29,647 bases of DNA. Source: a virus. The notes under the pieces were generated by a model. The model was given only the letters and a program-made list of their open reading frames with translations, had not been told where the DNA came from and did not search any database. Below, one piece after another: positions 6,716 through 18,634 of this stretch; position 1 is the first letter of the stretch; each line of letters opens with the position of its first letter. Both the position numbers and the translations under genes were made by a program. The stretch is from the IMG/VR virus record IMGVR_UViG_3300030451_002037, positions 1 through 29,647 of that record; one strand, 5' to 3'.

Positions 6716-6869
6716 TTTGTAACTCCTTTATGAAAAAGTGGAAAATATTTTTGTGAGACCCCCCGTACACCATAGGTGGCCAGGGGGAGGGTATGCTTGG
6801 TTTTGCAGTGTGTGCCTTTTTTATTTTTCTGTGTGTACATAATCTAAACGACCATCTAGTTCTTGTACA
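6716..6869 (-). other. Non-coding gap with GC-rich hairpin before terminase operon
   Basis: The longest non-coding stretch in the window, 154 bases. At 6759-6787 a run of C pairs with a run of G (five outer pairs), and an inner CACC pairs with GGTG around an ATA loop, with a mismatched internal bulge between. This is the most GC-rich patch in an AT-rich genome. It lies directly upstream of the packaging genes. The motif TGTAC recurs three times across the gap, and the preceding gene ends in a 13-base palindrome, TACACTTAGTGTA, that spans its stop codon at about 6867. Possible roles are a terminator, a transcript-start structure, or a packaging (cos or pac) site. None is proven. Confidence 0.5.
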
Positions 6870-7766
6870 CTAAGTGTATCTTTTATTCATTTTTTTTGCT
6901 AGGCCCTTAATAATATCCTTGGTATCCATTGGCTTCTGTTCCTGGTCTTGCTTCTGCCATATGCTTTTGAAGTATGCTATTGTGTATGGTGGTCTTGAAT
7001 AGTCCTTGTTACACTTCTTCAGCTTCTTGAATACCTCAGTGCTGAACTCATTCACTGTAACTCCCATATCGATTATCTGTTCTGCTATCGCTTCTTCCCT
7101 CTTGGTCCATCGCCACTGCCCTCTTGTCTTGCAGATATCGTCTAGTGCATGTGAATACACTCTTAACAATTCAAAAACTTTATCCTTAATAATATTATTA
7201 TTAGTTATAGAATTATAGTTATGTACAACATCATTGTGTTGTGTATCGGTACAACCTCTAGTGTTGTATACCTCACTCTTATTCACAACATCAGGTTGTA
7301 TCTTATTCAAAGTATCCACAGCCTTATTGTGTTCTACAATAGGGTCAGAGGTGGCTTTTATAAGCTCTGTATCGCTGATAGCTGGATCATAGATGATACG
7401 ATATGTAGCTGTCTTTTTGCCCTTCTGACGTAATGCATTTTCATTGACAATCTTCTTAATATATCCCCAGTCAATAAGCTTCACTATCTGCCTGGATATT
7501 GCTTGCTGAGATCGGCCCAGTCTCTTTGCCAGGAGAAGCTGTGATGGGAATGCTGTACCTGACTGACCTGATACATAAGAGCATAGAACACATAACACCT
7601 GGAGTGCTGATGGATTAGCTATGATACGTCTATCTGCCAAAGCTCTTGAAGGTATATTGATATATGGTGAAGGTGACTGCTCTTCTGTAATCCTATGCTT
7701 TTTAGGTGGCAGTGTAATCTCCCTTCTAGCTTTTAATATTTCTTCAGGTTTATTCATCATGTTCAT
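6870..7766 (-). CDS. Winged-helix replication initiator-like protein
   Basis: A 298-residue protein. Residues 40-125 form a winged helix-turn-helix: LPS-type helices, then FPSQLLLAKRLGRSQQAISR as the recognition part and DWGYIKKI as the wing, a pattern shared with phage and plasmid replication initiators. Residues 130-205 are a low-complexity Asn, Val and Thr rich linker. Residues 205-298 are helical, with QWRWTKREEAIAEQIIDMG and a final basic stretch, as in initiators that load host helicase. No polymerase, primase or helicase gene is present, so this protein probably recruits the host replisome. The DNA that encodes its linker contains the palindrome cluster listed separately. It starts at ATGA overlapping the upstream stop, with further in-frame ATGs at codons 3 and 4. 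Confidence 0.7.
   Translation of the reverse strand: MNMMNKPEEILKARREITLPPKKHRITEEQSPSPYINIPSRALADRRIIANPSALQVLCVLCSYVSGQSGTAFPSQLLLAKRLGRSQQAISRQIVKLIDWGYIKKIVNENALRQKGKKTATYRIIYDPAISDTELIKATSDPIVEHNKAVDTLNKIQPDVVNKSEVYNTRGCTDTQHNDVVHNYNSITNNNIIKDKVFELLRVYSHALDDICKTRGQWRWTKREEAIAEQIIDMGVTVNEFSTEVFKKLKKCNKDYSRPPYTIAYFKSIWQKQDQEQKPMDTKDIIKGLAKKMNKRYT
7185..7341. other. Candidate replication origin inside initiator gene
   Basis: Within the linker-coding part of the initiator gene lies an array of related palindromes. ACAACA and TGTTGT flank a 6-base spacer at 7225-7242. TACAAC and GTTGTA flank a 7-base spacer at 7250-7268. ACAAC and GTTGT flank a 5-base spacer at 7285-7299. The first and third share ACAACATCA as a direct repeat. 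A fourth, inverted version, TATTGT and ACAATA around five bases, lies at 7325-7341. Immediately beside them, 7188-7204 is pure A and T (TAATAATATTATTATTA), followed by more AT-rich DNA. Iterated protein sites next to an AT-rich unwinding element inside the initiator gene is the layout of the lambda origin in gene O. Function is inferred. Confidence 0.6.
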
Positions 7767-8146: not shown

Positions 8147-8468
8147 TCTTTACACCGATATGGCAAGCTTCAACTAACTTCTTTTTGAGCTTGTATACTG
8201 GTGTCTTAAAACCTTTTACATCTTCTACGACACAATAGCCTTCCTGATTCTGTGGACCTTTACCATGGTGTATAAAATACTGAAAATCAGCTTTGTATGT
8301 GCAGACCTTCACCTGGTTTACAATACAATCAAATGATGGCTGAAGCTCCAGGTTAGATATAACACCGGATTTTTCCATCATCTTTAGTACACTGTACCTC
8401 TTTGCTTCTTTCATACTATCAAAAGTAATACCATCAACTACTGTTTTCTTTGCTCTATACTTCGTCAT
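8133..8468 (-). CDS. DUF1064-family nuclease-like protein
   Basis: A 111-residue protein with the DUF1064 pattern: FDSMKEAKRY near residue 16, TYKADFQY with Asp61, and VVEDVKGFKT with Glu82, Asp83 and Lys85, then YKLKKKLVEA. The D ... ExK arrangement is that of the PD-(D/E)xK nuclease fold, and the family is found in phage replication regions where a Holliday-junction or flap endonuclease would be expected. It follows the ribbon-helix-helix-like gene (overlap 14 bases) and precedes the zinc-finger gene (ATGA overlap). The catalytic residues look intact; the substrate is inferred only. Confidence 0.8.
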   Translation of the reverse strand: MTKYRAKKTVVDGITFDSMKEAKRYSVLKMMEKSGVISNLELQPSFDCIVNQVKVCTYKADFQYFIHHGKGPQNQEGYCVVEDVKGFKTPVYKLKKKLVEACHIGVKIEEV

Positions 8469-8718
8469 TTGCCTTCACCATTTTATCTACTTGTCTTGCT
8501 ATCTCAGCATCATGTATCTGCTCTTGTTGAAAATCATCTACAATCAACATCTTGTTACTAATACTTCCTGGCTGTCTTTTTCTAAGAGCATCCCTGAATA
8601 TAATCTCAGCCAATGCTGACATAGAAACCATTTCAATCTTTGATTGTGCCTTCAACATCGCATGGCATTCTTCAGTAATACGACAAAGAAAAGGCCTTAT
8701 CTTTATCTCATCCATCAT
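8455..8718 (-). CDS. Ribbon-helix-helix-like regulator (probable)
   Basis: An 87-residue protein and the first gene of the leftward unit. The N-terminal IKIRPFLCRI could be the DNA-contacting strand, followed by helix TEECHAMLKAQSK, a turn with SMS, and helix ALAEIIFRDALRKR, the order seen in Arc/CopG-type ribbon-helix-helix proteins. The C-terminal half is acidic and unassigned. Position beside the divergent control region fits an autoregulated repressor or activator. The start is one of two adjacent ATGs at 8718 and 8715, with AAAGG about 10-13 bases upstream. The fold call is from pattern only. Confidence 0.5.
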   Translation of the reverse strand: MMDEIKIRPFLCRITEECHAMLKAQSKIEMVSMSALAEIIFRDALRKRQPGSISNKMLIVDDFQQEQIHDAEIARQVDKMVKANDEV

Positions 8719-8829: not shown

Positions 8830-9051
8830 GTGAGTAACATTGATTACGTTTATAAAAGAAAAGATGGTGGCACTATACATTGTTATGGTGTCATCGAAGA
8901 AGACAGCAACTTCCATGTTGTATGTGACAACGAAGAGTATGATGGGATTGCATGTGACATTGACGGCAGTGAGTACAACACCTGGAAAAAGGTTTGTGAC
9001 TACCTGGTTGTTAATTACAGACATGACATTGAACAAATAGAAACTTGTTAG
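8830..9051 (+). CDS. First rightward gene, 73-aa unknown protein
   Basis: A 73-residue acidic protein starting at GTG (8830), with AAGGAG six bases before it. No other start has a comparable site. It has alternating hydrophobic strands (TIHCYGVIEE, NFHVVCD) and a helix near TWKKVCDYLVVNY, with five cysteines. I do not recognise the family. As the first gene of an early-type operon and next to the serine recombinase (11-base gap) it could be a regulator or a host-takeover protein, but nothing shows that. Confidence 0.6.
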   Translation: MSNIDYVYKRKDGGTIHCYGVIEEDSNFHVVCDNEEYDGIACDIDGSEYNTWKKVCDYLVVNYRHDIEQIETC

Positions 9052-9062
9052 GGAGCAAAGTA

Positions 9063-9779
9063 ATGATCTATTGTGCATATGTAAGAGTATCAACAGATAC
9101 CCAGGATGTCGCAAGACAAGAGAATGAAATTAAGAAATGGCTTGGTGATACAGATCACCAGGTCATATGGTTTAAGGAACAAGGTGTTTCAGGTAAGGTA
9201 GCTCCTGAGCTAAGACCTGAGCTTTCCAAGTGTATTGATACAGTCAGGGCCAGCAAAGGCACATTGATTGTAGCTGACCTGGATAGATTTTCCAGGACTG
9301 ACTGGCATACTCTAAAGTTCTTTGACCAGGTATTGAAGAACGGCAAGGTAAAACTTGTTGTTTGTAATGATCCTACAATATCTGAAAGTAAAGATAAGTT
9401 TGCATTGAGAACTTTGTTTGCTCAGATGGAACAAGAAAAGATTTCAGAAAGAACCAGGTCTGCCCTTCAAAGAATTAAGGATGAGATCAAAGCTAATGGT
9501 ACATACAAAACTAAATCAGGTAAGTTAATTAGCTCACTCGGTTGTCATTCAAACATGGATTTTGCAAGGCAAAGAAGTGCCGAAGTTATCAAGCTCAAAG
9601 CAGATATAAGAGTTAAAGATATTGAATCAGTAATTCAAAAATTATTAAGTGTTGGTGATAGCTATCGACAGATAGCCAGCCAGCTTAATCAAATGGGTGC
9701 AAACACTGCTAGAGGTGGCAAGTGGTATGCATCTACAGTAAGTAATGCCGTAAAAAGATTGGAGAAAAATTATGGTTAA
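9063..9779 (+). CDS. Small serine recombinase (resolvase/invertase type)
   Basis: A 238-residue site-specific recombinase. The catalytic domain has YVRVSTDTQ with the nucleophile Ser10 and Arg8, then LDRFSR with Arg75 and Arg78, and the long E-helix around MEQEKISERT at 122-131. The C-terminal half ends in a helix-turn-helix, GDSYRQIASQLNQMGANTARGG (198-219), with KWYASTVSNAV. All active-site residues seen in gamma-delta resolvase are present. It is much shorter than the large phage serine integrases, so it is more likely a resolvase or invertase, although integration by small ones is known. I start it at ATG 9063, with GGGAG 7 bases upstream, rather than at the earlier TTG. No tyrosine integrase is in the window. 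Confidence 0.9.
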   Translation: MIYCAYVRVSTDTQDVARQENEIKKWLGDTDHQVIWFKEQGVSGKVAPELRPELSKCIDTVRASKGTLIVADLDRFSRTDWHTLKFFDQVLKNGKVKLVVCNDPTISESKDKFALRTLFAQMEQEKISERTRSALQRIKDEIKANGTYKTKSGKLISSLGCHSNMDFARQRSAEVIKLKADIRVKDIESVIQKLLSVGDSYRQIASQLNQMGANTARGGKWYASTVSNAVKRLEKNYG

Positions 9780-17249: not shown

Positions 17250-17753
17250 TTATATCCCTACCAATTTATAGCCACCAAAGTGGCAGTTACTTGCTTTAAA
17301 CTCCCAAAAAGAACTCTCTGTATCGTGAAATACTTGACACTCTAAATAATCATCTGCATCTAATTCTACAATCATTGAAATACTCACAGGCATAGTTGTT
17401 GGTTCAGCACTGTCTTGACCAGTACTAAAATCAAATTCACTTGTACTAGCTGGGTATTTACTGCCATTTTTAAGAAAACGTATAATAGTTCTTTCCCATT
17501 GAGTGGCTACACCACTTGTTACACTCATAGTTGCATAGCACCAATACTTTCCTGCGACAGCAGGAGTAAATCTTCCAGTAGATGTACTATAACAAGTATT
17601 TGTATTTATAGATGTTAAATTTCCTTTATAAATAACATTACTTTCATTACTTAAACCAGTTGTTACACCACTTACTACGCTTGTGTGATAAGCATGAAAT
17701 GCTGGAGCATTTAATGATCCTATACCTTCACCTATTACTTGTGTTAATGCCAT
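17250..17753 (-). CDS. C1q-like fibre tip protein
   Basis: A 167-residue protein, starting MALTQVIGEGIGSL at ATG 17753, which shares TAATG with the preceding fibre gene; the frame is open ten codons further upstream but that part would overlap. PAFHAYHTSV, TGRFTPAVAGKYWCYATMSV, LKNGSKYPAS and LECQVFHDTE match the C1q/TNF jelly-roll, a trimeric receptor-binding fold in many phage fibres. It ends FGGYKLVGI. It is almost all tip, without a shaft, so it may attach to the fibre made by the adjacent gene. Confidence 0.7.
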   Translation of the reverse strand: MALTQVIGEGIGSLNAPAFHAYHTSVVSGVTTGLSNESNVIYKGNLTSINTNTCYSTSTGRFTPAVAGKYWCYATMSVTSGVATQWERTIIRFLKNGSKYPASTSEFDFSTGQDSAEPTTMPVSISMIVELDADDYLECQVFHDTESSFWEFKASNCHFGGYKLVGI

Positions 17754-18634
17754 TATATCATATACCCCCCAAAGAAAGAACAAAACCCAGTAGTATCAAA
17801 ATCTGCATTTGCGTTCAAACCACCCATATTATGAGAAACATAATTTACATTATTGCCACTTACAGAGTTAGCAAAAACTCTTACTTTTACTACATCAGTT
17901 GCACTCAAAGAAAGTAATGCAGATAATGCTAATTGTGTTTGCCCTACATCATTAGTTGCATATCTTTCTAAAGTATTAGCTTTTGCACTACCATTTACTA
18001 ATATACCTATTCCAGCATCTCTTAAATCCGAGTCATCTCTTGTAATGGTAATATTTGTATAAAATAAATATAATCCTGTATGTGTAATAGTACATTGCCC
18101 ATTAGATGTATTATAACTCATTTGTATATCAAAATCTTTAGTATTAAATATAGCATCAGCATTTGAACTATCTGATTCACTTTGTGCAGAACCAGTTCTT
18201 CTTGCATGAAATCTTGGTTTAGCTGATTGTGTAACAACACCACTACTATTTATTGCAATAGCATCTGTATCACTTGCACTACCTATATTACCATCATTAG
18301 GTATAACTATGTTACCAGTAAACGTACCACTGGTAGCTTCCAAAGCATTACTGCTAGGGTGGCTTACTGTACCTACTGTTCTAAACAAGTAGTACACAAA
18401 GATGTTATTACCTGAGTTACTTGATGGTGCAGAAGTAAATGTAAGAGTTGTGCCACTTACTGAGTAACCTACAGAAGGTTCTTGAATAACACCATCTACA
18501 GATACAAGTATATCTTCATCAGAACCTACTCCATGATCTAGTGTAAATGCAGTAGTAGAACCATCACCTGAGAATACTGAAGCTGACTTTGATGCTACAA
18601 ATCTATTTGCTGAAGTATTTCCTATGTATGGCAT
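17753..18634 (-). CDS. Tail fibre protein, MPYIG family with C1q-like end
   Basis: A 293-residue fibre protein. The N-terminal MPYIGNTSANRFVASKSASV, followed by TTAFTLDHGV and ILVSVDGVIQEPSVGYSVSG, is the paralogue of the attachment domain in the 407-residue fibre. A short linker leads to a C1q-like end: KPRFHARRTGSAQSES, CTITHTGLYLFYTNITI, GILVNGSAKA and FGGYMI at the very end. The two MPYIG genes start with near-identical DNA (CCTATGTATGGCAT), a sign of duplication. It is leftward, and precedes the C1q-only gene. Confidence 0.75.
   Translation of the reverse strand: MPYIGNTSANRFVASKSASVFSGDGSTTAFTLDHGVGSDEDILVSVDGVIQEPSVGYSVSGTTLTFTSAPSSNSGNNIFVYYLFRTVGTVSHPSSNALEATSGTFTGNIVIPNDGNIGSASDTDAIAINSSGVVTQSAKPRFHARRTGSAQSESDSSNADAIFNTKDFDIQMSYNTSNGQCTITHTGLYLFYTNITITRDDSDLRDAGIGILVNGSAKANTLERYATNDVGQTQLALSALLSLSATDVVKVRVFANSVSGNNVNYVSHNMGGLNANADFDTTGFCSFFGGYMI

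Follow-up and report, generated by a model that had tools for sequence, protein, structure and literature searches.

A probable lambda-O-style replication origin inside a winged-helix initiator gene of uncultured marine phages

Background

In phage lambda, the replication origin is located centrally within gene O: palindromic iterons (with arms such as CCCTC-N5-GAGGG) are bound by the O protein, and A/T-rich DNA follows them (PMC7466680, PMC6022878). Four 18-bp iterons are annotated in O in the lambda record. The O proteins of hybrids between lambda, phi80, and 82 served to map the determinants of replication specificity (Furth and Yates 1978, cited in PMC6022878). An origin placed inside its initiator gene is already a known design. 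The locus described here encodes a protein outside the lambda O family by Pfam, and the comparative evidence for it is unusually clear.

We analysed a viral stretch of 29,647 nucleotides (IMG/VR record IMGVR_UViG_3300030451_002037), hereafter the window. Judging from the comparison of homologous sequences, the region from 7302 to about 7164 very probably serves as the replication origin of the phage, in the style of lambda O, inside the disordered linker of its own initiator gene. As in lambda and its relatives among the Stx phages, several palindromic iterons with arms of about 5 bp lie in the middle of the initiator gene and are followed by an A/T-rich stretch. The half-site is a different one, and there are three iterons with spacers of 5, 7, and 8 and starts 26–34 bp apart, whereas lambda has four of 18 bp with starts 20–24 bp apart. 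Unlike lambda O, the protein has an HTH_36 match and resembles the O-like PHROGs weakly, and no lambda-P-like loader gene was recognised beside it, the neighbouring small ORFs having no loader match.

The protein also resembles the DnaD-like loaders and HTH_36 phage initiators: PHROG 186 (DnaD-like loader) matches residues 28–270, i.e., most of its length, and a weak DnaD_N match occurs in 13 of the 22 aligned members. In contrast to the DnaD-like loaders, the DnaD_N Pfam match falls below the cut-off in the window protein, for which helicase loading is putative. The nearest cultured phage is Methylophilales phage MEP301, an OM43 podovirus whose TerL is 65% identical and whose early genes include, as here, a resolvase and a YqaJ exonuclease; no DNA polymerase was reported for it (PMC8024684). 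Its gp55 (L034, 34057–34662), annotated as hypothetical, is distantly homologous to the winged helix of the initiator, but this 202-residue protein is devoid of the linker, the C-terminal domain, and the array. Hence, the origin of MEP301 must lie elsewhere. We found no description of an origin for this initiator family in a literature search of partial coverage.

Results

The initiator and its array

The initiator gene (6870–7766, minus strand) encodes a winged-helix protein of 298 residues that matches Pfam HTH_36 (1.8e-9; residues 51–103) and the PHROGs of DnaD-like helicase loaders (1.8e-8), replication initiation (6e-8), and, weakly, O-like proteins (3.5e-4). The Pfam model of phage replication protein O matched none of the window proteins at E<=0.1 and is absent among the 25 families shown for the 22 aligned members. 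AlphaFold2, given an alignment of 22 relatives, produced a modest overall model (mean pLDDT 62.6) with two better-predicted blocks. The first is the winged-helix DNA-binding domain (residues 40–125; 7392–7649, minus strand), where the pLDDT is mostly 70–90 and lower near the wing. The second is a C-terminal helical domain (residues 185–275; 6942–7214, minus strand; pLDDT mostly 70–86), with a possible role in recruiting a helicase. Disorder is predicted at residues 138–191, which include the linker encoded by the iterons. A Foldseek search of the PDB with this model gave no match at E<=0.001; the nearest folds were winged helices of the MarR/ArsR type, with scores that are not significant. The window has no recognisable polymerase, DnaB-type helicase, or primase, in line with the initial annotation's picture of a phage dependent on its host for these functions, and neither DnaB nor polymerase A was recognised in six longer relatives; the records are linear and may be incomplete.

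The part of the gene that encodes the linker contains three palindromes of the same half-site: iteron 1 (ACAAC-N5-GTTGT, 7285–7299), iteron 2 (ACAAC-N7-GTTGT, 7251–7267), and iteron 3 (ACAAC-N8-GTTGT, 7225–7242), none of them assigned to a strand. The shared half-sites at spacings of 5–8 bases that the initial annotation described are thus present. These are the only ACAAC...GTTGT palindromes of the 29.6 kb window, in which 0.26 are expected, and none of 100 dinucleotide shuffles reached three. Synonymous-codon shuffles of the initiator gene never gave three palindromes of one half-site (0/20,000), and the other window genes tested (n=22) had at most two. We found no second array of a comparable kind in the window, and no such array in the genomes of the marine phages MEP301 and Hodr. 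The detector requires exact arms and failed on lambda O as a positive control; it is specific rather than sensitive because lambda's iterons, whose arms are imperfect, escape it.

A fourth palindrome, TATTGT/ACAATA (7325–7341), had been counted with these three. It is present in the window, but we dropped it from the array because it is not conserved: it is broken in the relatives (L003 reads CCCATCATCGAGAGTAAA), most of which show CAG instead of CAC. Most relatives also have an insertion of 74 residues at the left edge of iteron 1, between 7302 and 7303, which separates the 7325 pair from the other three palindromes; it is absent from the window and from L001–L004.

Past the last palindrome in the coding direction lies the candidate unwinding element (7164–7223, no strand), with 85% A+T over 60 nt against 61% gene-wide, which places it in the top 0.7% of the gene's 60-nt windows. 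The block of pure A and T reported earlier at 7188–7204 does exist, with corrected limits: the run extends from 7186 to 7203, and base 7204 is a G. The A/T-rich stretch also contains a repeat with a period of 14 bp (AACTAT...AACTAA, 7201–7220), parts of which recur in several homologues. GC skew, suggested as a marker of the origin, was set aside. It switches at ~8.8 and ~11.9 kb, where the genes change strand; these switches follow gene orientation and are uninformative on the origin.

Selection on the DNA of the linker region

We compared the gene with 17 clear relatives from IMG/VR, codon-aligned where their length sufficed. This alignment delimits a block without synonymous change in relatives, the candidate origin core (7191–7302, minus strand; 7191 is approximate). 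Within the block, the window and L003 agree at each of their 21 shared degenerate codons, against 95 of 178 elsewhere (p=5e-6); between L003 and L011, the figures are 23/23 and 92/174 (p=1.5e-6). The amino-acid identity of L003 and the window does not differ between the block (21/28) and the rest of the gene (185/265), so constraint on the protein does not explain the frozen block. Very strong as it is, the constraint has exceptions: L004 shows single synonymous differences within the block.

The changes that do occur leave the DNA elements intact. The spacer of iteron 1 reads CTGAT, GTCAG, or GTAAG among relatives while both half-sites are constant, a Gly-to-Cys codon change in L008 leaves the half-site unbroken, and N/I replacements in the A/T core of close relatives leave the bases A/T. 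In an independent clade with ACAAG-N6-CTTGT sites, synonymous variation affects 2 of the block's 25 degenerate columns, compared with 155 of 251 elsewhere. Selection at the DNA level across the coding sequence is therefore seen independently in the ACAAG clade too. The initial annotation had proposed that selection here could favour the DNA over a linker of low complexity and had asked for an alignment of relatives; this alignment supports the proposal, with palindromes and synonymous sites fixed while linker residues change at the gene-wide rate.

Persistence in distant homologues

Further scans retrieved homologues down to ~28% protein identity. Those at 28–58% identity have two to four palindromes, usually of the same half-site, in the same position and with an A/T-rich stretch downstream. 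Their linker peptides differ, and the palindromes are rebuilt there all the same. For instance, ACAAC/GTTGT palindromes with spacers of 5–8 number four in L029, three in L031, four in L042, and four in L052. At least two palindromes of one half-site lie inside the gene in 20 of 24 representatives at 80% amino-acid identity, and 13 of the 24 have three or four (each P<=0.002 against synonymous shuffles). The ACAAC pattern is nearly absent outside the initiator gene in the fetched loci. The A/T-rich stretch past the last iteron is found in nearly all classes, its 60 nt ranking near the top of the gene's windows in A+T content. Iterons played no role in the selection of the homologues; the last scan used a protein pattern built on the QQA/QPA helices, which makes the helix types a biased sample.

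The situation that the initial annotation had set against its own reading, a relative with the same initiator and neither palindromes nor an A/T block at this place, did not occur among proteins that share the whole architecture. Degenerate or different repeats were found in L018, L050, L051, and L098. L098 and L104 form a divergent clade with repeated GTAAC sites, which are palindromic in L104 and mostly direct (GTAAC...GTAAC) in L098; L104 has no significant HTH_36 match. A tblastn search with six family members revealed no phage isolate with the whole architecture, the only matches among isolates being the truncated homologue of MEP301 and one weak partial match in a Streptococcus phage.

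The winged helix and the half-sites change together

The class of half-site follows the DNA-binding domain of the encoded protein. Proteins with a QQA recognition helix (residues 87–100 in the window, 7467–7508, minus strand) have the ACAAC half-site. The six with a QPA helix and an Asp at the wing position of window residue 114 go with four ATAAC-N7-GTTAT sites and no in-gene ACAAC array. A clade with the helix CTQQAISQHM has the ACAAG half-site, and L104, with the helix TARTHVTNYM, has GTAAC-N7-GTTAC. L051, which is close to the ACAAC-bearing L050, has a different helix (KQTVGKH), has lost the ACAAC sites, and carries a CATAGTARC direct repeat instead. Residue 88, a Q in the window, is replaced by P in the ATAAC class. 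The one exception is L056, a metagenome-assembled contig, which combines a QPA helix with ACAAC iterons and has the wing of the other class. This breaks the Q/P correspondence and weakens a strict Q88/P88 rule. Wing residue 114 (codon 7425–7427, minus strand) separates the half-site classes in every full-length gene, the L044 fragment, which has no winged helix, being left out.

Mosaic genes show the same association at the nucleotide level. L030 and L039 are 75% identical in the winged helix, 97% in the middle, 54% in the iterons, and 100% in the C-terminal part. Similarly, L038 or L040 against L042 gives 69–72%, 91–92%, 52–54%, and 95–97% for the same segments. The picture is the opposite for L030 and L036, which belong to the same class (88%, 81%, 92%, and 93%). 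On segment trees of 15 genes, a small set with some weakly supported branches, the half-site class changes once for the iterons, twice for the winged helix, four times for the middle, and four times for the C-terminal part. These patterns support the view that the encoded initiator reads the sites of the array. The joint change of half-site and winged helix parallels the findings with lambda/phi80/82 hybrids, but here the mosaics are natural and the residue-level co-change was found in uncultured marine phages, from sequences alone.

With moderate confidence, we propose that non-lambdoid phages, mainly aquatic ones, form a broad family whose in-gene origins fall into at least four or five classes of half-site (ACAAC, ATAAC, ACAAG, GTAAC, and perhaps the CATAGTARC direct repeat of L051). 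A few residues in the recognition helix and the wing would determine the class, and the winged helix and the iterons would be exchanged as a pair across ~80–90 unrelated codons, forming a natural specificity-swap set for the recognition of origins by initiators.

Function of the array

The comparison thus supports the origin reading in three respects: the DNA sequence is itself under selection, the array persists in distant homologues, and winged helix and half-site change jointly. The palindromes in the linker of a winged-helix initiator and their A/T-rich neighbour, kept in homologues, favour the lambda O design that the initial annotation had recognised. The N-terminal winged helix of the initiator would bind the three iterons, presumably as a dimer on each ACAAC/GTTGT pair. 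Once assembled, the complex would strain and open the adjoining A/T-rich stretch, the C-terminal helical domain may recruit or load the replicative helicase of the host, and host enzymes would carry out DNA synthesis. Some observations sit uneasily with an origin: the spacers (5, 7, and 8) show a variability unusual for a rigid dimer, L056 pairs a QPA helix with ACAAC iterons, and the homologue in MEP301, the nearest cultured phage, has no array.

The co-change of protein and DNA suggests that the protein reads the sites, but not to what end. The array could accordingly be an internal operator or roadblock for repression of the operon by its own winged-helix protein, with the origin elsewhere, and the closest folds, MarR/ArsR-like winged helices with non-significant scores, would suit such a repressor. 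We regard this as improbable: the array occupies the middle of the gene, a long way from the start, and has an A/T-rich neighbour in nearly all classes, the protein matches families of replication initiators and loaders, and the window holds no further array of the same kind.

The remaining explanations are all highly improbable. Resolvase sites likewise consist of sets of inverted half-sites with unequal spacing, and the phage encodes nearby a serine recombinase (9045–9779) and an Arc-like protein (orf87, 8455–8718), both kept in most relatives, for which the array might be a res site or an operator, respectively. Sites of 15–18 bp are short for resolvase dimers, and the site sequence does not vary with the recombinase. 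L073 (on the contig of L038, ATAAC) and L077 (on the contig of L043, ACAAC) have recombinases that are 95% identical and orf87 proteins that are 100% identical, but their half-sites differ, which indicates that these two proteins are not the readers.

There is equally little reason to take the palindromes for RNA hairpins in the initiator mRNA. Both arms switch together between the ACAAC and ATAAC classes, so that RNA pairing would persist, and L030 folds better than its shuffles (z -3.5). However, the window block does not (z -1.3; 21 of 200 shuffles were as good), nor do L029 and L042; the stems are of 5 bp, and all copies in a gene have one sequence, which tracks the class of the winged helix. 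Rfam gave no match. Finally, a partition (centromere-like) site for the winged-helix protein is suggested by TubR and AspA among the weak structural matches, but these are not significant, no ParA- or TubZ-like gene was found among the scanned window proteins, and the A/T-rich neighbour would be left unexplained.

If the array is an origin, these data predict, with base precision, the origins of a set of uncultured marine phages and of their distant relatives, extend the lambda O design past the lambdoid phages, and suggest a likely name for the protein annotated as hypothetical in the isolate MEP301. With the natural mosaics at hand, short synthetic DNA could be used for a direct test of the residue-to-base code in such initiators.

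Other features of the window

Among the relatives for which flanking sequence was read, nearly all retain the small serine recombinase gene at 9045–9779, and MEP301 has a resolvase-domain gene at the same place. Between the initiator and the packaging genes (6717–6869), the relatives share a hairpin-like element, rich in G/C, whose arms (CCCCC...GGGGG) vary. After it comes the almost unchanging sequence TCTCACAAAAATATTTTCCA(C/T)TTTTTCATA(A/T)AGGAGTT; this region is possibly a terminator, a promoter, or a packaging site. Exact inverted repeats of at least 16 bases were not found in the window. Two adjacent genes of virion type (17250–17783 and 17753–18634) have a common PHROG 15750 domain.
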